From Oscillospiraceae bacterium (GTDB lineage Bacteria > Bacillota > Clostridia > Oscillospirales > Ruminococcaceae), in assembly GCA_017394475.1 (NCBI GenBank), contig JAFPYQ010000335.1, positions 1 to 5,842 of the forward strand: a DNA stretch of 5,842 bases, in the 5' to 3' direction. Below, piece by piece: positions 1-5,842 of the stretch. The notes under the pieces are model-generated. The model was not told the origin of the DNA, ran no database searches, and was given only the letters and a program-made list of their open reading frames with translations. A program made the translations under genes and the position numbers. Position 1 is the first letter of the stretch. Every line of letters starts with the position of its first letter.

Positions 1-44
1 CCCCCGTCAATTTTAGTTTTAACAGCGGGATATATTTTATTCAT
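1..44 (-). CDS. Start of an unidentified gene downstream of the phage-type gene (partial)
   Basis: Only the first 14 codons are inside the window, and the product begins MNKIYPAVKTKIDG. The ATG at 44-42 overlaps the stop codon of the preceding minus-strand gene (TAA at 39-37) in an ATGAATAA arrangement. A GGTGGAG stretch lies just upstream and can serve as ribosome binding site. The overlap suggests translational coupling to the capsid-protein remnant. In phage and polymorphic-toxin loci, a small gene placed directly behind a variable C-terminal domain is often an immunity or accessory gene. That role is an inference from position only; the residues seen here do not identify a family. Confidence 0.5.
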   Translation of the reverse strand, partial: MNKIYPAVKTKIDG

Positions 45-813
45 ATTCAAATCTCCACCCTAATGCATTGCAATAATATTGTATACTGTCAAAATTTCCG
101 TTTTCCATCGTATAACGGCGATTAAAATCCCTATAGTAATCATTATACGCATTTTGATTGGATAAGTCAAGCCTTTTGCCTTTTTCAACAGACATTTTGT
201 AAATAATGCCATTGTGACCTGCGGCTATTATCGATTTAACTTGTGGACAATTGTTAAGAAGCGCAAAATCCTCAAAGCTAAAAGTATCATTATTTCCGTG
301 ATTGTGAATAACTATGAAACTGTTATCGCTTGCTTTCGGGATGATTATCTCGCCGCCTGTTTCACCTGGTCTCATAAAATCGCATATCATTTTGCCATTC
401 CTTGAATCTAGTATAGCAACGTTTTCAAACAAAGTCCCATCGTTTTCTTTTATGCATTTGCGTGCCGTTTCCACAGCTCTCCTATCACCTAACCATGAAT
501 CGGTAAGCCCTTTGTATTTCTTTGCGTAGTCCTTGTTGTCTATCGCAGGGTAATTAACGCTAAAGTCTGATGTAACCCCAGGCGTTGTCCGAATAAGTGC
601 TTTCCTCTCGCTCCAAACCGTCTTCATACTCTTGCTGCGGTCATACCCATACACCTGCGTGCGGTCATTGTGCATCCCGAGACCGTGCTCCTTCGAGTAG
701 TCCTTGTACTTGTCCTTGTACTCCCTCAGCTTCTTGGAAGCATCCTTCAGGCCTTCCTCGTCACCAGCCTCCTGCAGCATCATGCACTCCCGCTTCTGCG
801 AGCGTATCTGCAA
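37..813 (-). pseudogene. 5'-truncated phage minor capsid (head) protein with JAB/RadC-like C-terminal domain
   Basis: The open frame encodes about 258 residues but lacks a proper start. Its first usable codon is a TTG at 813, six bases after an in-frame TGA (819-817), with no ribosome binding site. Residues 1-70 are charged and helical, with EAGDEEGLKDASKKLREY and DRTQVYGYDRS, as in the C-terminal part of Phage_min_cap2-type minor capsid proteins. The N-terminal several hundred residues of that family are missing. Residues 125-210 look like a JAB/MPN metalloprotease-type fold: an upstream Glu (E130), then HNH at 170-172, followed by S179 and D182, close to the RadC and JAMM pattern HxH-x6/7-S-xx-D. 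The DNA is clearly more AT-rich for this C-terminal half (about 37-590) than for the capsid half, as expected for a swapped-in domain. I infer a remnant of an integrated phage cut near 813. The JAB assignment is by motif only. Confidence 0.6.
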
Positions 814-867
814 TAATCATCATCGGCTCCCAGCAAAGGCGGCCTGATGGCACCAAAAGGAATTGAA

Positions 868-1383
868 ATGAACTATACACTTCACTATACATCGCCCTTC
901 GGCGGCATAACTCTTGCAAGCGACGGAGAAGCCCTCACCGGCCTGTGGTTCGACGGGCAGCGATATTTCCCGAACCTGTATGGCAATGAAACCGGCAAAA
1001 ACAGTCTGCCGGTATTTGTGCAGACAAAAGAGTGGCTCGATATATATTTCACGGGGCGTGATCCCGGTTTTACCCCTCCCATAAAGCTGTTGACCACACA
1101 ATTCCGCAGGGAGGTCTGTGAGATCATGCTCACTATCCCATTTGGCAGTACATCTACATATGGTGAGATCGCGGCTATCATATCGGAGAGACGGGGAGGC
1201 GAAAAAATGTCCGCACAAGCTGTGGGAGGTGCTGTAGGTCACAACCCCATATCCCTTATCATACCATGCCATCGGGTCATAGGCAACGACGGCAGCCTGA
1301 CCGGATATGCAGGCGGGACGGAGTTGAAAAGAAAGCTGCTCAAAATGGAAGGAGCAGCTTTTAAGAACGGTGATGATGTATGA
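868..1383 (+). CDS. ogt: Methylated-DNA--protein-cysteine S-methyltransferase (O6-alkylguanine repair)
   Basis: The product, 171 residues, repairs O6-methylguanine (and O4-methylthymine) by moving the alkyl group irreversibly to its own cysteine. The active-site PCHRVI is at residues 133-138, with the acceptor Cys at 134. It is preceded by the conserved GGAVGHNPISLIIP stretch and followed by YAGGTELKRKLLKMEG, the usual C-terminal signature. The DNA-binding helix-turn-helix begins around IPFGSTSTYGEIA. The length fits the family. I chose the ATG at 868 because AAAAGG (855-860) lies seven bases upstream; an in-frame ATG at 847 has no such site. No clear promoter is visible between the phage scrap and the gene, so it may once have been read from an upstream gene now replaced by prophage DNA. 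It converges on the TetR-type gene. Confidence 0.95.
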   Translation: MNYTLHYTSPFGGITLASDGEALTGLWFDGQRYFPNLYGNETGKNSLPVFVQTKEWLDIYFTGRDPGFTPPIKLLTTQFRREVCEIMLTIPFGSTSTYGEIAAIISERRGGEKMSAQAVGGAVGHNPISLIIPCHRVIGNDGSLTGYAGGTELKRKLLKMEGAAFKNGDDV

Positions 1384-1388
1384 TCTTA

Positions 1389-1464
1389 TGTGTATGGGGT
1401 ACAGTGATATTCACCACTGTTGAAAAGATTTTTTGCGGATGGATCATCATGGTGCCCATACGCA
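1389..1464. repeat. Imperfect inverted repeat between convergent genes
   Basis: TGTGTATGGG (1389-1398) can pair with CCCATACGCA (1455-1464), ten pairs including one G-T. Inside it, ACAGTG (1401-1406) and CACTGT (1415-1420) form a perfect six-pair hairpin with an eight-base loop. It sits between the stop codons of ogt and the TetR-type gene, where a shared terminator would be expected. Neither side has a convincing T-run, so the terminator role is uncertain. Confidence 0.35.
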
Positions 1465-1470
1465 TTTGTT

Positions 1471-2025
1471 TTACATAAACGTTTTTAGGCGCTCAAAATA
1501 TTCGGCAAGCAGCTTGCTTATCTTGTCGGGATCGTCGGTCATGCCGCGGTGTACCCACAGTGCCGCCACATTCAGTATCGCACCTATATTGAAAGCCATG
1601 AGATAGTCCTTATCGAGCCCTTCAAAAAGCGGTATGGACGGATTTGACTGCGAAAGACGCTCACTTCTTATACTTGGCAGATATTCATTTGTGCACTGCA
1701 GTATGATGTATGACATACCGTTTTGGTCAAGGAGCATGAGGAGCTCCTTGTTCTTTTCAAGATAACGGAACTCCGCTTTAAGGATATCTTCATGTGCGTT
1801 GTTCACCACATCGAAATACTCGCCCAGTCTGCGCTTTATCAAAGAGCGCAGAACATCTTCCTTTGATGTGAAGTTGCGGTAGAACGTCTTTTTTGCCAGG
1901 CGCGCCTCCAGGATTATCTGCTTTACGGTTATCTCCTTGTAGGGGTATTTCCGCATGAGGGTGAGCAGAGCTTCGGTTATCTCATTCTGTGAACGTATGG
2001 CAGAGGGATTTGTGGAATCTGTCAT
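1471..2025 (-). CDS. TetR/AcrR-family transcriptional regulator
   Basis: The product, 184 residues, is a one-domain repressor-type regulator. The N-terminal helix-turn-helix spans about residues 10-60: QNEITEALLTLM, then KEITVKQIILEARLAKKTFYRNF, where the recognition helix ends in the TetR-typical FYRNFxSKEDVL. The C-terminal part ends with ALWVHRGMTDDPDKISKLLAEYF, which resembles the TetR_C_7 (DhaS-like) ligand and dimer domain. The start at 2025 is chosen because AAGGAG lies six bases upstream; an in-frame ATG at 2079 would add 18 residues unlike TetR proteins. The gene is divergent from the GNAT acetyltransferase gene, and the two promoters overlap, so autoregulation and control of that unit are likely. 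The inducing ligand cannot be read from the sequence. Confidence 0.9.
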   Translation of the reverse strand: MTDSTNPSAIRSQNEITEALLTLMRKYPYKEITVKQIILEARLAKKTFYRNFTSKEDVLRSLIKRRLGEYFDVVNNAHEDILKAEFRYLEKNKELLMLLDQNGMSYIILQCTNEYLPSIRSERLSQSNPSIPLFEGLDKDYLMAFNIGAILNVAALWVHRGMTDDPDKISKLLAEYFERLKTFM

Positions 2026-2051
2026 GGTCTTCTCCTTATAAAAGTGACACA

Positions 2052-2099
2052 CATCCGCAAGATGGTGTATCTTTTGCATATCGTATTGACATCTGCGGA
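2052..2099. promoter_or_regulatory. Inverted repeat in the TetR/GNAT intergenic region, candidate operator
   Basis: TCCGCAAGATG (2054-2064) and CATCTGCGGA (2090-2099) are inverted copies that differ by one inserted base, with centres about 36 bases apart. The right arm lies between the -35 and -10 elements of the plus-strand promoter, and the left arm lies in the leader of the TetR-type gene. Such a layout suits a regulator that represses both directions, or an RNA hairpin in the TetR leader. Which of the two applies is not decided by sequence alone. Confidence 0.45.
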
Positions 2100-2117
2100 C
2101 TTTTATTATATTATACT
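2086..2117 (+). promoter_or_regulatory. Promoter for the GNAT-membrane protein unit
   Basis: A perfect -35 TTGACA (2086-2091) is followed by TATTAT at 2109-2114 (17-base spacer) and by TATACT at 2112-2117 (20-base spacer). The first has the better spacing. Transcription would begin near 2121, about 90 bases ahead of the acetyltransferase start. Confidence 0.65.
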
Positions 2118-2138
2118 ATACAAAGAAAGAGAAAGCAA
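2110..2138 (-). promoter_or_regulatory. Promoter for the TetR-family gene
   Basis: Read on the minus strand, TTGCTT (2138-2133) and a perfect TATAAT (2115-2110) are separated by 17 bases. It physically overlaps the -10 region of the opposing plus-strand promoter, so the two RNA polymerases would compete even without a repressor. Confidence 0.6.
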
Positions 2139-2213
2139 GACCGTTAACTCCCATTTTTTGTTTTGAAGTACAGTGAGCGGCGTCGGTCAGAATATGATAC
2201 AAGGAGATCTGAA

Positions 2214-2717
2214 ATGATGGAACTCAGAGACTTTATCCCGTCGGATGCGGGAACGATAATAAGCTGGACGGGGGATGAGACCGCTTTTCGCAAATGGTGT
2301 GCGGACAGATACGATCATTATCCCATAATGCCGCAGGATATGATCTCACAGTATGCCGGGGCATCGCAGAACGGACGCTTCTTCCCCTATACAGCCTGTG
2401 AGGACGGCATCCCCGTGGGTCACATGATAGTCAGATTCCCGAATGAGGACATGAGTACAGCGCGCTTCGGATTCGTCATAGTTGACCCGGGGAAAAGGGG
2501 ACAGGGCATCGGCAGGAAAATGCTGGAGCTGGCTATAAGGATATCAGCCGAAAAATACGGGGCTCGGCAGGCGACTCTGGGAGTTTTTGCCAACAATGAG
2601 CCTGCTCACAGGTGCTATCTTGCGGCGGGCTTTACAGATGTTCCAAATGCGGAAAAGGAGTGTTATCACATCTTCGGTGAAGACTGGCTCTGCACGGAAA
2701 TGAAATGCGATCTCTGA
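2214..2717 (+). CDS. GNAT-family N-acetyltransferase
   Basis: The product, 167 residues, belongs to the Gcn5-related acetyltransferases, cytoplasmic enzymes that move an acetyl group from acetyl-CoA to an amine. The acetyl-CoA pyrophosphate-binding loop RGQGIG is at residues 95-100, directly after the beta strand FGFVIVDPG. The C-terminal motif NNEPAHRCYLAAGF (127-140) holds the usual Asn and the Tyr that often acts as general acid. The length is normal for the family. The start at 2214 is set by AAGGAG (2201-2206) seven bases upstream; a TTG at 2163 in the same frame has no ribosome binding site and adds residues unlike GNAT proteins. It is followed after 25 bases by a membrane protein gene in the same direction. 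The substrate is unknown. Confidence 0.9.
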   Translation: MMELRDFIPSDAGTIISWTGDETAFRKWCADRYDHYPIMPQDMISQYAGASQNGRFFPYTACEDGIPVGHMIVRFPNEDMSTARFGFVIVDPGKRGQGIGRKMLELAIRISAEKYGARQATLGVFANNEPAHRCYLAAGFTDVPNAEKECYHIFGEDWLCTEMKCDL

Positions 2718-2742
2718 TAAGATCGGGATAGAAAGGATCATC

Positions 2743-3480
2743 ATGAAAAGCTTCAATGATATCGGGATAGGAAAAGAACTTGACAGACAGCGTATCCGAA
2801 AACTGTTCATCATCGGGCTCATCGGGGGATGCATGACCTTTGCTGGGGACTGGATGCTGGGCTATGGCGTTTATGATGAAAGCCTCACGGGGATCAGGAG
2901 AAAGCTGTCGCAATACCTGACCCTTTCGGACGGACTGCTGTTCTGGTCGGCATTCCTGGGGCTCATTGGCATCTCGCTGGAAGGGCTTTGCTATTTCGGG
3001 ATATACAGGTTAATAGCATCAGGCAGCGAAAAATATTCCCATGTGTTCCGCAGCGGTGTATTCGGGTATATGCTGTTCGCACCCTGCGGTGTCCATGTCC
3101 CATGCCTGTCCACGGTGTTCTTTTAAAAGCATATGACGGAACAGGCGCCGGATGTGGCCTATGATCTCACCATAAGGTTCGGGATGTACTTTCTACTGCC
3201 CGGCATAATACTGTTCTTTATCTCCTTTTTTATAATGAGCATATCCCAGATAACGGCATTTGCCAAAGGGCTCACACCATATCCTAAATGGTGCTGGATA
3301 TTCTCTCTGCCGGTGGGGATGGCGGTGACCATGCTTCTCAAATTCACTGGGAACCATGCGGTATCCAACGGGCTTACTGCCGCATGGATAAGCATAGGCA
3401 ATATCTGGATGTTTGGCGGTCTGCTCATTACCATGAAGTATGCCGAGGATAAAATGCTCAGTGCAAAGGCGGCTGCATAA
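2743..3480 (+). pseudogene. Six-helix membrane protein (DUF6796-like) interrupted by one in-frame stop
   Basis: The reading frame codes for 245 residues except for a TAA at 3124-3126 (codon 128), with no shift of frame on either side. The first part (127 codons, to 3126) ends VHVPCLSTVFF and the second continues KHMTEQAPDVAYDLTIRFGMYF. Homologues that I recall have a Tyr where the stop lies, so TAT or TAC to TAA is the simplest change. Hydrophobic helices lie at about residues 20-41, 66-91, 104-125, 140-162, 182-201 and 213-231, giving six membrane segments. The sequence resembles the uncharacterised DUF6796 family of Bacillota as I remember it; I cannot verify this. The start follows AAAGGA (2732-2737) by five bases. 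Downstream translation could restart at the ATG at 3133, but no ribosome binding site precedes it. A recent nonsense mutation, suppression of the stop, and a sequencing error are all possible. Confidence 0.75.
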
Positions 3481-3483
3481 AAC

Positions 3484-3518
3484 AAGACCCGCAGGATCAT
3501 CATGGATCTGCGGGTCTT
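3484..3518 (-). terminator. Bidirectional hairpin terminator between the membrane protein gene and the tRNA genes
   Basis: AAGACCCGCAG (3484-3494) pairs perfectly with CTGCGGGTCTT (3508-3518), an eleven-pair stem with a 13-base loop. On the minus strand it begins one base after the CCA end of tRNA-Leu(CAA) and is followed by GTTTTAT, so it best serves the tRNA transcript. It may also stop plus-strand reading, though no T-run follows on that side. Confidence 0.75.
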
Positions 3519-3519
3519 A

Positions 3520-3606
3520 TGGTGCCGGTGGCGGGGGTCGAACCCGCACGGTATTGCTACCAACGGATTTTGAGTCCGTCACGTCTGCCAATTCCATCAC
3601 ACCGGC
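3520..3606 (-). tRNA. tRNA-Leu (anticodon CAA, reads UUG)
   Basis: An 87-base class II tRNA with encoded CCA (3522-3520). Acceptor GCCGGTG pairs with CACCGGC. The anticodon stem ACGGA/TCCGT encloses CT-CAA-AA, a variable arm is present, and the T-arm is GCGGG-TTCGACC-CCCGC. The discriminator base is A, as expected for leucine. It is the last gene of the cluster. Confidence 0.95.
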
Positions 3607-3694
3607 AATTGGTCATTTTGACAAATACAAATTTGAACATTTTTCGATCTGTCACCCGGATGAGGGGAAACGGAAGGAAATGGATCTTATCAAA
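3607..3694 (-). promoter_or_regulatory. Spacer between the two tRNA-Leu genes, weak promoter candidate
   Basis: Read on the minus strand, this spacer follows the terminator at 3695-3713. It contains GTGACA (3655-3650) and TTGTAT (about 3630-3625), 19 bases apart, a poor but possible promoter for tRNA-Leu(CAA). Without it, that gene would depend on read-through from upstream. Nothing else is recognised here. Confidence 0.3.
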
Positions 3695-3713
3695 AAAGCC
3701 CCCAAAGGGCTTT
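3692..3713 (-). terminator. Intrinsic terminator after tRNA-Leu(UAG)
   Basis: On the minus strand AAAGCCC (3713-3707) pairs with GGGCTTT (3701-3695) and runs into further T residues, a standard seven-pair terminator with a five-base loop. It divides the tRNA cluster into two transcription parts, or lowers expression of tRNA-Leu(CAA). Confidence 0.75.
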
Positions 3714-3723
3714 GATCGACATA

Positions 3724-3807
3724 TGGTGCGCCCGACAGGACTTGAACCTGCACGCTTTAGGCAATAGATCCTAAGTCTATCGTGTCTGCCAATTTCACCA
3801 CGGGCGC
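3724..3807 (-). tRNA. tRNA-Leu (anticodon UAG, reads CUN)
   Basis: An 84-base class II tRNA with encoded CCA (3726-3724). Acceptor GCGCCCG pairs with CGGGCGC. Anticodon stem ATAGA/TCTAT encloses CT-TAG-GA. The T-arm is GCAGG-TTCAAGT-CCTGT, and the discriminator base is A. Confidence 0.95.
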
Positions 3808-3851
3808 ATATATTCTGCGCAGTGACGGCTTTTAAGCGTAAAAGTAAAAAA

Positions 3852-3928
3852 TGGCGTCCCCGGGCAGATTCGAACTGCCGGCCTTTCGCTTAGGAGGCGA
3901 ACGCTCTATCCTGCTGAGCTACGGAGAC
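3852..3928 (-). tRNA. tRNA-Arg (anticodon CCU, reads AGG)
   Basis: A 77-base tRNA with encoded CCA (3854-3852). Acceptor GTCTCCG pairs with CGGGGAC through one G-T pair. Anticodon stem TTCGC/GCGAA encloses CT-CCT-AA. The discriminator base is G, as usual for bacterial tRNA-Arg. It is the first gene behind the cluster promoter and decodes the low-use codon AGG. Confidence 0.95.
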
Positions 3929-3964
3929 ATGATCTGTGCCTTGTATAAAGCACACAACTATAAC

Positions 3965-3993
3965 AGTATAACACATTTCAGACGATATGTCAA
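3965..3993 (-). promoter_or_regulatory. Strong promoter of the tRNA cluster
   Basis: On the minus strand a perfect -35 TTGACA (3993-3988), a 17-base spacer and TATACT (3970-3965), with TGT directly before the -10 giving an extended -10. Transcription should begin about 30 bases ahead of tRNA-Arg. It is divergent from the promoter of the large RNA, about 60 bases away. Confidence 0.85.
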
Positions 3994-4051
3994 TAGTAAA
4001 ATTATATAAATATTTTTCACTAAGATTGTGTGGTATTTTTTCCGAAAACTA

Positions 4052-4080
4052 TTGACTTTTACCAAAAAATGTAGTAATAT
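4052..4080 (+). promoter_or_regulatory. Promoter of the large RNA
   Basis: TTGACT (4052-4057), a 17-base spacer and TAATAT (4075-4080); a TATAAT also occurs at 4080-4085 but lies too far from the -35. Transcription is expected to begin near 4087-4090. No ordinary protein gene follows for 1.5 kb, so this promoter supports a dedicated RNA transcript. Confidence 0.75.
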
Positions 4081-4225
4081 ATAATCATCAACAGGGGGAC
4101 AGAGAAAAGAGACCAAGGGTCCCGGCGGGAAGAGGGTGCTCCGGAAGGGGGCGGTGGTTTTCCCGGATGAGGAAGGGTCTCGGGTTTCCCGGGGTTGAAA
4201 TTATCCTGAAAGTGAGGCGAGTCCA

Positions 4226-4282
4226 ATGGCAGTAGAAGCACAGCAGTCGAGAGAGTTCCGCAGTGGGCTCGGCAAACGGTGA
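4226..4282 (+). other. Short reading frame of 18 codons inside the large RNA
   Basis: ATG at 4226 follows GTGAGGCGAGTCCA and opens MAVEAQQSREFRSGLGKR before TGA. The start context, TCCAATGGCAG, matches the downstream array units (TCCAATGGACAG) apart from one missing base, which keeps this frame open longer. The Shine-Dalgarno match is modest (GAGGCGAG). Translation is uncertain. Confidence 0.3.
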
Positions 4283-4394
4283 GCAAAAGGGAAGTATAAA
4301 GGCAGCGTGCTTTGAGCACCCACTTCCATACGAAGAATATATGCTTATGATCCGTTAGCTTGCAGCCCGAGGAGTTTTGGCAAAGGTGGTTGTA

Positions 4395-4505
4395 ATGTCA
4401 AGCGGGTATTTTTATACCCTGATGACGATCACTTCGTTCCTGCTTTCGGTACTCTCGGATGACTTGCTTGCAGGGGTCCGACGGAGGGATTCCCAAGGTA
4501 ACTGA
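4395..4505 (+). CDS. Possible small protein or leader peptide of 36 residues inside the large RNA
   Basis: The ATG at 4395 has a very good ribosome binding site, AAAGGTGG (4382-4389), five bases upstream. The frame gives a hydrophobic N-terminal half (YFYTLMTITSFLLSVL) and a polar C-terminal half with three consecutive Arg codons (CGA, CGG, AGG at residues 29-31) and six Leu codons. It could be a small membrane peptide, or a leader peptide whose translation senses Leu and Arg tRNA supply, given the tRNA-Leu and tRNA-Arg genes next door. It also contains a perfect hairpin, GGGTAT-TTTT-ATACCC (4404-4419), so the sequence may be kept for RNA structure. No family is recognised. Confidence 0.35.
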   Translation: MSSGYFYTLMTITSFLLSVLSDDLLAGVRRRDSQGN

Positions 4506-4551
4506 GGCTTGTGCCTTGAACGTACACACTCTTTACCAGAGGTGATGTTTT

Positions 4552-4900
4552 ATGAAAGGTTTTAAGTTGCTGATTATCTGATTTGACAGGGGTGAGTCCA
4601 ACAGGCTGATTAATTTCGCCCACGGCTTTTGAGCGGGGCATAGGTTGAGTTAAATGTAAAGGACTGATTTCATATGTTCATCACAGTGAGAGTTTTGATC
4701 GAATTTTGATTAGACTGGAGTGAGTCCGAAAATAAACTGAGTTTTCCGAATCATTCGGACAGGTAGTTAAAATGCTCGTTAGAACGGAGCTGATCTTATG
4801 AAATCAAGAGGTTATCACGACCTGAATCTTTGATCGGTCCCTGCATTGCCTGAAAGCAGTGGCGGGGAGGATGGACACAGCCGAAGGGCTGAATAATTAG
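4552..4900 (+). other. Group of short reading frames with Shine-Dalgarno sequences (middle of the large RNA)
   Basis: In order: ATG 4552 to TGA 4581 (MKGFKLLII) behind GAGGTGATG at 4539-4547; ATG-TAA at 4654-4659 (start followed directly by stop); ATG 4674 to TGA 4709 (MFITVRVLIEF) behind AAAGGA at 4658; ATG 4772 to TGA 4801 (MLVRTELIL) behind CAGGTAG at 4760-4766; ATG 4798 to TGA 4833 (MKSRGYHDLNL) behind CGGAG at 4785-4789, overlapping the previous stop as ATGA; and ATG 4871 to TAG 4900 (MDTAEGLNN), whose GGGGAGG touches the start codon and is too close to be a normal site. They have no visible similarity to each other beyond this layout. Confidence 0.35.
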
Positions 4901-5494
4901 GAAGAGGTAATTTCCAATGGGCAGGTAAGGCTTTTTTAAAAGAAAGTTTCATCTACTTTAAAGGAGAAAAATCCCATGTACACTTTATGACCCGGGTCGA
5001 GGAGCCCGCAGGATGATATGTTATCCGCACAGTGTTTAAGGAGATAGTCCCATGGACAGTTGATAATCACCGTAGAATAACTTATCTTTTGAGGTGTATA
5101 CCAATGTACTGATGTACTTTAACTTTAAGTCTTTTAAGCAATAGTTGAATTTTTAGTGTAGTGAGGATAATCCGATGCACATCTGAGTATGCGTTAAACG
5201 AAAGCATTTGATATACCGAAGATAAAGGAGTTAGTGTCCAATGGACAGGTAATGTGCACAAGAATGACCGAAAATCTATTTATGAGGTGTGTTCCGATGT
5301 ACTGATAGGATCTTCCGATGATCGATATATTATATGTTTAAGAAAGGATATTCCAATGTACTGATCAACTGATATCGCAGTCAATGCTTTAAATAGAATT
5401 CCTGAATGCTACTTACGTTTTATGTAAAGGAGCGATCAACGCAGTAGGGTATTTGAAATTTATTAAAGCAGTATAAAGGACAAGGAGTGAGTCC
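4589..5494 (+). repeat. Dispersed GTGAGTCC motif, three copies plus a variant
   Basis: GTGAGTCC occurs at 4592-4599, 4720-4727 and 5487-5494, each behind GG or GGA; the eleven-base form GGAGTGAGTCC is identical at 4717-4727 and 5484-5494. A variant, GCGAGTCC, lies at 4217-4224 outside these bounds. Unlike the array units, these three copies have no ATG at the expected place. GGA and TCC in each copy can pair across a five-base loop. Confidence 0.6.
4901..5364 (+). repeat. Array of eight Shine-Dalgarno/AUG/stop minigene units
   Basis: Eight consecutive units have the form SD, 7-10 bases ending in CC plus one base, then ATG and an early stop. Start and stop bounds with product: 4917-4928 MGR; 4976-4990 MYTL; 5052-5063 MDS; 5104-5112 MY; 5175-5186 MHI; 5241-5252 MDR; 5297-5305 MY; 5356-5364 MY. 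The SDs are AGAGGT 4903, AAAGGAG 4960, AAGGAG 5038, GAGGTG 5091, GTGAGGA 5161, AAAGGAG 5224, GAGGTG 5284 and AAAGGA 5343. ATG-to-ATG distances are 59, 76, 52, 71, 66, 56 and 59 bases. When each SD is aligned to AAAGGAGGTG, the gap to ATG is 5-7 bases in seven of eight, the range used by real start sites. The consensus after the gap is about TCCAATGKACWGR. Further SD-like copies without ATG follow at 5426, 5482 and 5521. Confidence 0.75.
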
Positions 5495-5547
5495 ACCCGA
5501 AACGCTATTTGGTCCGCGGTAAGGAGCGGACATAGGAAAGAATACTC

Positions 5548-5586
5548 AGTCAGCCGTCTACAGTCTGGACGGCTGGCTTTTTTATT
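5548..5586 (+). terminator. Strong intrinsic terminator of the large RNA
   Basis: AGTCAGCCGTC (5548-5558) pairs with GACGGCTGGCT (5568-5578), eleven pairs with one G-T, a nine-base loop, then TTTTTT-A-TTT. It sets the 3' end of the transcript near 5586. Confidence 0.9.
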
Positions 5587-5632
5587 TGGTAGAACAGGAA
5601 AAAATAGCCACGGGCTTAGTTTAGCCTGCCTC

Positions 5633-5661
5633 TTGACAATTTGTGAGAAATGTGTTAATAT
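5633..5661 (+). promoter_or_regulatory. Promoter of the last gene
   Basis: Perfect TTGACA (5633-5638), a 17-base spacer, then TAATAT (5656-5661) with TGT just before it (extended -10). The last ten bases, AAATGTGTTA, are identical and identically placed in the tRNA-cluster promoter. Start of transcription is expected near 5667. Confidence 0.85.
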
Positions 5662-5666
5662 AATTA

Positions 5667-5785
5667 GGGGTGTTATGCAGATACGCCGATAAGTATTTGC
5701 CGCATTCTATTCACGATACATGCAAAATATGGGCTCATGGATGCACCGCATCCTTTGAGCCCGTCAGTAAAAGACATACAGGACA
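5667..5785 (+). promoter_or_regulatory. Structured 5' leader with a perfect double hairpin
   Basis: The leader is about 119 bases. GGGCTCA (5731-5737) pairs with TGAGCCC (5756-5762), and inside it GGATGC (5739-5744) pairs with GCATCC (5748-5753) around an ACC loop: 13 Watson-Crick pairs with a small internal loop. A weaker helix joins TTT-gcc-GCAT (near 5697-5706) to ATGCAAA (5720-5726). A tiny frame, MQIRR, starts at 5675. No T-run follows the hairpin, so it is not a plain terminator. I do not recognise a known riboswitch class; control of translation or of RNA stability is possible. Confidence 0.45.
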
Positions 5786-5842
5786 ATGAATATAAAAAAA
5801 GTTTTAACTCTGATGATCTCGGCATTTATTGCCGTAAATATC
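5786..5842 (+). CDS. Start of a probably secreted or membrane protein (partial)
   Basis: The first 19 codons are present: MNIKKVLTLMISAFIAVNI, two Lys followed by a hydrophobic stretch, as in a signal peptide or membrane anchor. The ATG at 5786 has only AGGA (5780-5783) two bases upstream, closer than normal; a later ATG at 5811 has no better site. The gene has its own promoter and a structured leader. The family cannot be told from this fragment. Confidence 0.65.
   Translation, partial: MNIKKVLTLMISAFIAVNI

Follow-up and report, generated by a model that had tools for sequence, protein, structure and literature searches.

A predicted RNA carrying a row of start-stop minigenes in Ruminococcus-like bacteria

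Results

The locus and its predicted transcription unit

The window analyzed here is a 5,842-nt stretch of DNA from an Oscillospiraceae bacterium (contig JAFPYQ010000335.1), and coordinates are window positions throughout (1 to 5,842). It contains a minus-strand frame (37-813) with similarity between its first 39 residues and the C-terminus of phage minor capsid protein 2 (E 1.1e-4, below the curated cut-off), as well as a DUF6796 gene (2743-3480) broken by an in-frame stop near 3124, the halves of which match the first and second half of one Pfam model. Three minus-strand tRNA genes, two for Leu (CAA and TAG) and one for Arg (CCT), lie at 3520-3928, just upstream of a predicted transcription unit of 1.5 kb, here called the array RNA, whose transcription probably starts at ~4087. 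Its features are:

4052-4080, plus strand: promoter (TTGACT, 17-nt spacer, TAATAT), by pattern match
4214-4224, plus strand: type A element GAGGCGAGTCC 5' of ORF0, helix 1 of alignment A3
4226-4282, plus strand: ORF0, 18 codons, MAVEAQQSREFRSGLGKR, an open frame kept in relatives
4290-4327, plus strand: hairpin GGAAGU...ACUUCC with an inner stem, helices 3 and 4 of A3
4552-4581, plus strand: micro-ORF MKGFKLLII with the Shine-Dalgarno sequence (SD) GAGGTGAT; relatives have like-placed ORFs followed by the same element
4589-4599, plus strand: A element without ATG, GGGGTGAGTCC, by element form
4674-4709, plus strand: micro-ORF MFITVRVLIEF, SD AAAGGA, with an A element 10 nt on
4717-4727, plus strand: A element without ATG, GGAGTGAGTCC, by element form
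4798-4833, plus strand: micro-ORF MKSRGYHDLNL, whose peptide is the best conserved one of the RNA
4917-4928, plus strand: minigene 1, MGR*, by scan rule
4976-4990, plus strand: minigene 2, MYTL*, by scan rule
5052-5063, plus strand: minigene 3, MDS*, by scan rule
5104-5112, plus strand: minigene 4, MY*, by scan rule
5175-5186, plus strand: minigene 5, MHI*, by scan rule
5241-5252, plus strand: minigene 6, MDR*, by scan rule
5297-5305, plus strand: minigene 7, MY*, by scan rule
5356-5364, plus strand: minigene 8, MY*, by scan rule
5484-5494, plus strand: last A element without ATG, just 5' of the terminator, with a like element in relatives
5548-5586, plus strand: intrinsic terminator (13-pair stem, 5548-5578, and T run), by pattern match

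The promoter and terminator of its own that the initial annotation had ascribed to this RNA are thus both present, as judged by pattern. Its further statement that the RNA has no ordinary coding gene holds in that no plus-strand ORF of at least 50 codons was found in the transcript, but it has to be qualified for the 18-codon ORF0 (4226) and three ORFs of 9-11 codons (4552, 4674, 4798), all of which have counterparts in relatives. A search of the window with Rfam 15 (4227 models) gave only the tRNAs at curated score, and three weaker matches were at chance level (E 1.5-2.3). In 20 relatives, the Rfam search returned one tRNA and one neighbouring 6S RNA and nothing else.

Eight minigenes in a row

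The eight consecutive SD/ATG/early-stop units described by the initial annotation were all recovered between 4917 and 5364 by a rule-based scan (SD tetramer 5-12 nt 5' of an ATG, stop within five codons). Applied to the stretch 4881-5380, this rule returns exactly these eight units, and it returns none on the minus strand of the array region or on the plus strand of 1-4086. In 2000 dinucleotide shuffles a mean of 0.64 units and a maximum of 6 were found, and no shuffle reached eight; a chance origin of the array was rejected on these grounds. The starts follow each other at 59, 76, 52, 71, 66, 56 and 59 nt. The predicted accessibility of the eight sites was no better than that of random ones (0.428 versus 0.415; 1572 of 5000 draws were as high).

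Related loci and their distribution

At the DNA level, eight of 61 genomes contain similar stretches; these eight belong to one genus, and the genome of the window is among them. A covariance model (R1) covering ORF0 and the hairpin, built on alignment A2 (14 sequences, not fitted to the structure), extended this to 29 of 396 genomes of the family in 10 of 126 genera; the sequence-level reading left out G338, G366 and G378 (E 4e-4 to 5e-4) and hence the genera g150 and g102. With an extended model (R2, 38 sequences), 17 of 20 genomes in the genus were found to have the RNA, including all eight with a completeness of 90% or more and a contamination of 5% or less. In the order, R2 found it in 11 of 394 genomes (one from another family), and in the class in two of 291, one of them the window's genome. 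These counts are lower bounds, since stricter filters were applied in the searches of more than 40 genomes. Searches of open PubMed Central papers turned up no description of such an RNA. By its sequence, the array RNA is a predicted and apparently undescribed gene common to several genera of Ruminococcus-like bacteria.

For comparison we used 42 pieces from 40 genomes, whose sequences are related and not independent. G132 was dropped (ORF0 not found by rule). The ends of the RNA were set by hand in 12 of the 42 pieces (G013, two of G010, G006, two of G018, G034, G416, G723, G761, G739 and G585) and by scan in the others. The common architecture comprises the promoter, ORF0, the hairpin, ORFs of about ten codons, GGAGTGAGTCC-form elements with or without ATG, the minigenes, often a last ATG-less element, and the terminator.

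A promoter of the same form is present in 38 of 40 pieces examined (none in G432 and G034). The block from ~40 nt 5' of the -35 box through the start is closely alike in the window's own genus and most other genera, with more divergence upstream in g16 and G585. The promoter is strong-looking and conserved, as far as the sequence tells. An automatic scan detected a terminator 3' of ORF0 in 32 of 40 pieces; note that those of G416 and G585 lie beyond the likely end.

A conserved word, TGCACAAA..TGTG..TATTTT, stands 5' of the -35 box (~4012-4051; weak in the window, at the same place in relatives) and is a likely regulator binding site. A search of seven genomes for the word TGCAC-A-rich-TGTG gave eight matches in six genomes; one of these, in G369, is at another place in the genome, and another, in G160, coincides in part with the promoter itself. 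In G002, a 6S RNA gene (RF00013; L065 586-786) is located on the opposite strand upstream of the array RNA, and 6S-like sequence can be seen by eye upstream in G011, G004, G010, G018 and G006, too.

The number of minigenes per copy ranges from 0 to 8 by rule (none in 6 of the 42 pieces), and array length varies among close relatives. G003 has a second, shorter copy in tandem, ~2 kb upstream of the first (L025 turned, ~0.55-1.2 kb), which possesses promoter, ORF0, hairpin and two micro-ORFs (including a FHDLD peptide) and no minigene. The seven g16 pieces have a short form with zero to two minigenes by rule, with 406 and 427 nt from ORF0 to the terminator (G245 and G666, in which the scan found the right end). 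The variable number, the second G003 copy and the short form of g16 together mark the minigene array as a module that most of the members read possess and some have expanded.

ORF0 and the 5' domain

ORF0 is open over 16-28 codons in all 40 pieces in which its start was found, and the hairpin pattern follows its stop at 0-18 nt in 30 of these 40. The CGAGUC of the GAGGCGAGTCC element can pair with GGCUCG within ORF0; in A3, an alignment fitted to the structure, this helix 1 is paired in 98.7% of cells and shows little covariation because it is nearly invariant. In helices 3 and 4 (98.3% and 92.3% of cells paired), each of the ten pairs has both of its bases changed in at least one sequence. 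The MAFFT alignment A2, which was not fitted, shows such two-sided changes in 6 of these 10 pairs and in 7 of 18 pairs overall. Altogether, 95.3% of the cells of A3 pair, compared with 82.2% in column shuffles. As judged from these alignments, the 5' domain is structured. Furthermore, an AAGAGAG within ORF0 of several relatives can pair by eye with a CTCTCTT ~200-300 nt downstream, and in the window both sides (4247-4255 and 4452-4458) differ in a matching way.

Micro-ORFs and their peptides

The motif [FY][HY]DxN (HDxN), located 1-2 codons before the stop, was found at 38 starts (35 distinct ORFs, three being counted from two starts each) in 26 of the 42 pieces, and never at such ends in the reverse frames; none was found in the seven g16 pieces. 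The 14 distinct 15-mers begin with F (eight) or Y (six) and have L, R, M or E as the fourth residue; their F/Y, H, D and N codons vary synonymously at the third base. Other classes of micro-ORFs end in RKEYEF or LKI. The peptides differ by position and, apart from HDxN, vary widely; the 99 distinct ones are basic (K+R 23%), and Ile or Phe is the last residue in 73 of 113 micro-ORFs. Their stops are mostly located 1 or 7-16 nt 5' of the next element, and in G369, G406 and G278 a stop abuts the SD of the following minigene or shares bases with it (TTTTTAAGGAG or similar).

Among 84,980 species genomes, the HDLN pattern was found in 14 stretches of 12 assemblies, with records labelled Oscillospiraceae, Ruminococcus or Clostridia, several of them from rumen, omasum, cecum or rectum samples. 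The same pattern gave no match in IMG/VR, and a phage origin was rejected on the basis of this one pattern. A sensor of all amino acids was also considered and rejected, with 10 to 19 amino acids present per locus, a range for which length alone may account.

Stops and reading frames at the start sites

Sites were defined as an ATG with an SD and [TA]CCN 5' of it, ORF0 excluded. This [TA]CCN rule was written after reading the loci, and the universal CC at the sites is therefore there by construction; it misses like sites, e.g., GCCAATGTACTGA in G245. The resulting 134 sites exclude G005, G016 and the second G003 copy. With the same rule, all five further sites 3' of ORF0 in G005 stop within five codons (one before ORF0 does not), as does one of two sites within the RNA of G016.

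A stop within five codons follows at 122 of the 134 sites (36 of 42 pieces): after two codons in 69, three in 46, four in 5 and five in 2 cases. The form of bar-type minigenes (SD, ATG and stop after two or three sense codons) is thus present at 115 of the 134 sites, and 12 sites open frames longer than five codons. The other two frames of the same sites have 34 and 17 early stops, and other ATGs of the same RNAs have one in 186 of 770 cases. With duplicates removed, 118 of 130 sites from nine genera stop early, 111 of them after exactly two or three codons; no site of this set has its stop directly after the ATG, compared with 37 of the 770 background ATGs.

The stop is TAA in 64, TGA in 40 and TAG in 18 of the 122 minigenes, and after ATGGCA it is TAA in 12, TAG in 8 and TGA in 7; by these counts, a stop as such is retained, whichever of the three words spells it. 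Within one sublineage, the corresponding site reads ATGGCATGA in G004, ATGGCACGTTAA in G010 and G018, and ATGGCACGTTGA in G011; G004 differs from the others by three bases, which leaves the frame intact, and at the same site in G002 the early stop is lost (seven codons). GTG replaces ATG with the stop kept at two sites (G218, G016), as seen in a relaxed scan that counts overlapping matches twice and is for this reason replaced by the duplicate-free set for counting. The last sense codons are of 32 kinds (GCA 27, AGT 18 among the 122), and MDS* occurs 11 times among the 122 minigenes of window and relatives. The start signal GGAGNNANTCCNATG is concentrated in the array RNA: of its 38 matches across ten genomes, 21 are located there and 17 elsewhere, and the latter compare with 9 for the reversed control.

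A folded repeat was rejected as an explanation of the array: the local fold from +3 to +40 at the 122 minigenes shows no excess structure (mean z -0.13, t -1.40). The base after GG is associated with the base before CC (GGA..TCC 88, GGA..ACC 5, GGT..TCC 20, GGT..ACC 9; Fisher p 0.0007, with sequences that are related), and for this reason the sites may still form a weak GGA/UCC hairpin.

Further copies of the start element do not have an ATG. Those of the window (4589-4599, 4717-4727, 5484-5494) have counterparts at like places across genera, and in 27 of 42 pieces the series of sites ends with such an element. The 42 pieces contain 94 distinct elements of this kind, in which early stops occur 49 times in the minigene frame and 39 and 41 times in the other two. 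No clear frame preference is seen in these 94, and their translation in the minigene frame was rejected on the same counts; the strict stop rule therefore applies only where a start exists.

The stop kept where an ATG stands, the frame control and the lack of excess folding argue for selection for initiation and prompt termination at the minigenes, which we consider well supported at the sequence level. The initial annotation had likewise proposed selection for ribosome binding rather than for a fixed RNA word, and the relatives strongly support this by an in-frame stop that is retained while its identity, the sense codons and the spacers vary. It had also named an observation that would contradict it, namely homologous loci losing ATGs or stops and keeping the pairing. 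This was encountered only in part, in the 94 distinct ATG-less elements and in the minigene-free pieces (6 of 42) and extra G003 copy.

Spacing of the elements

Successive minigenes are 45-80 nt apart in 46 of 52 cases (median 60), a measure freer of the bias in micro-ORF detection. Steps from a minigene to an ATG-less element are less regular (45-80 nt in 18 of 39). For all kinds of elements together, 71% of 301 steps are 45-75 nt long versus 19% for random placement, and 3.7% are shorter than 40 nt versus 40%, figures that are partly forced by seeking micro-ORFs 5' of elements; some of the micro-ORFs listed are chance ORFs. One ribosome covers ~30 nt; with sites ~60 nt apart, each site could therefore hold one ribosome.

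Discussion

A possible role in ribosome capture

Locus, frames, stops and spacing of the array RNA are conserved in sequence; its transcription and the level of it, the occupancy by ribosomes, their capture and the purpose of the RNA are what we infer from them. The initial annotation had raised the sequestering of 30S subunits or initiator tRNA, the sensing of translation, and shielding or shaping by ribosomes as roles that the RNA may have. The reading we favour, tentatively and with somewhat less than even confidence, is that the RNA parks ribosomes, i.e., that it catches them and holds them in short cycles of start, stop and restart. The micro-ORFs would bring ribosomes to the element (GGAG-N-UCC, with stops mostly 1-16 nt 5' of it), and a ribosome ending on a micro-ORF would be recaptured by the next element. 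On a strong-SD minigene it could restart without leaving, because SD, start and stop would all lie under one ribosome. Ribosome-sized spacing would permit many sites to be filled simultaneously, and the ATG-less elements would bind 30S subunits without a start. In this way the RNA would withdraw ribosomes or initiator tRNA from use or register how many are free, and through such parking it would hold back or gauge spare initiation capacity whenever its promoter is on. Reinitiation without dissociation on a minigene with a strong SD is described, citing others, in PMC8708949, which likewise names two-codon minigenes as the most toxic.

A bolder version, which we consider conceivable and yet rather doubtful, is that of a "6S RNA for ribosomes": the RNA would be a strongly transcribed, dedicated decoy with start-stop cycles as its main products, whose ribosome-spaced minigenes and start-less 30S docking elements would capture ribosomes and tune free initiation capacity, and which would be the first RNA family built from tandem minigenes. 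Several observations count against parking: the number of minigenes (0-8 per copy, none in the second G003 copy), the 94 distinct elements with the SD kept and the ATG absent, the less regular steps between minigenes and ATG-less elements (18 of 39 at 45-80 nt), the conservation as a peptide of one micro-ORF product, needless for parking alone, and predicted site accessibility no better than random. A simple effect in trans is disfavoured by the axe-txe minigene, for which PMC8708949 reports action in cis alone: no trans effect was seen, and its overexpression did not inhibit growth.

Other explanations of the array

Since HDxN is conserved as a peptide, the strongest rival is that of a polycistronic mRNA whose products are functional micro-peptides (that of ORF0 and those of about ten codons, chiefly the one with HDLN), in which minigenes and A elements only couple or tune translation. 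We regard it as unlikely, though deserving serious attention: 35 distinct ORFs from 26 pieces retain the motif near the stop while its third bases change synonymously, ORF0 is kept in 40 of 40 pieces with a start found, the 99 distinct peptides are basic (K+R 23%) with a preference for Ile or Phe at the end (73 of 113 micro-ORFs), and the second G003 copy keeps ORF0 and the FHDLD peptide without minigenes. However, products of 2-3 residues are hardly useful, and yet their starts and stops are strictly kept; moreover, the non-HDxN peptides vary widely and no HDxN was found in the seven g16 pieces. The ribosomes along the 3' half may instead shield a regulatory RNA from ribonucleases, with the structured 5' domain as its business end. 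The shared core is indeed this domain with its covarying helices, ORF0 persists in short members that have zero to two minigenes by rule, and PMC8708949 contains its authors' proposal that ribosomes at minigene sites may protect the mRNA from ribonuclease in cis. For shielding, though, a longer ORF would do as well as a stop after exactly two or three codons, and array length is unlike among close relatives; it seems distinctly improbable, and it is compatible with both the parking and the micro-peptide readings.

Even less probable in our view is that the minigenes act like lambda bar, driving peptidyl-tRNA drop-off and depleting tRNAs or initiator tRNA. Such an action would agree with the sharp preference for two or three codons (none with one) and with UAA as the stop in 64 of 122, the most toxic minigene stop according to PMC8708949. 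PMC8012679, as far as it is used here, covers drop-off and cites the lambda bar papers. The depletion of particular tRNAs, which the initial annotation had mentioned as a known effect of such minigenes, is unlikely for any one elongator tRNA because the last sense codon is diverse (32 kinds among 122, GCA the commonest with 27, AGT 18): by our own yardstick, minigenes starving one elongator tRNA should share it, which they do not. Initiator tRNA may still be depleted. Finally, the repeated GGA words could bind an RNA-binding protein as in CsrB, the ATGs being incidental, and csrA is present in 15 of 23 genomes carrying the RNA. A CsrA sponge is largely refuted, because csrA was not found in the other 8 of 23 carriers, seven of them at least 90% complete and including G013 with its six minigenes; a sponge of any such kind has no need of in-frame stops, the frame signal appears only in elements with an ATG, and we consider it highly improbable.

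Comparison with known systems

The minigenes of lambda bar and axe-txe resemble those of the array in their SD, ATG and stop after two or three codons, near enough for restart under one ribosome. They are single or paired and stand in a leader before a gene, whereas the array RNA has up to eight in a row, a predicted promoter and terminator of its own and a distinct start signal, and occurs in nine genera. GOLLD, ROOL and OLE (PMC12286853) are also long bacterial RNAs of restricted range, and ROOL, by its name, shares the rumen origin; the array RNA differs from them in matching no Rfam model, in an array without excess structure and in a function that seemingly depends on reading frames.

6S RNA (RF00013) stands alone like the array RNA and resembles it, as a proposed decoy for a core machine, in principle only. 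It mimics a promoter for RNA polymerase, whereas the array RNA carries translation starts and has no Rfam relation to it. Leader-peptide attenuators have short ORFs just 5' of elements that these could control, an arrangement also seen here; the array RNA differs from them in that no plus-strand ORF of at least 50 codons precedes the terminator (5548-5578) in the window. CsrB/RsmZ-type sponges contain many repeated GGA words, as does the array RNA, in which, however, stops and frames are kept and which occurs in 8 of 23 carriers where csrA was not found.

Significance

Start-stop minigenes have so far been known as isolated elements and as laboratory toxins. A family of RNAs in which a whole row of them is strictly preserved would demonstrate natural selection for translation with almost no product, and the array RNA offers a directly testable case for regulation by ribosome capture. 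Its conserved ten-codon ORFs lie under the usual length limits of gene finders.
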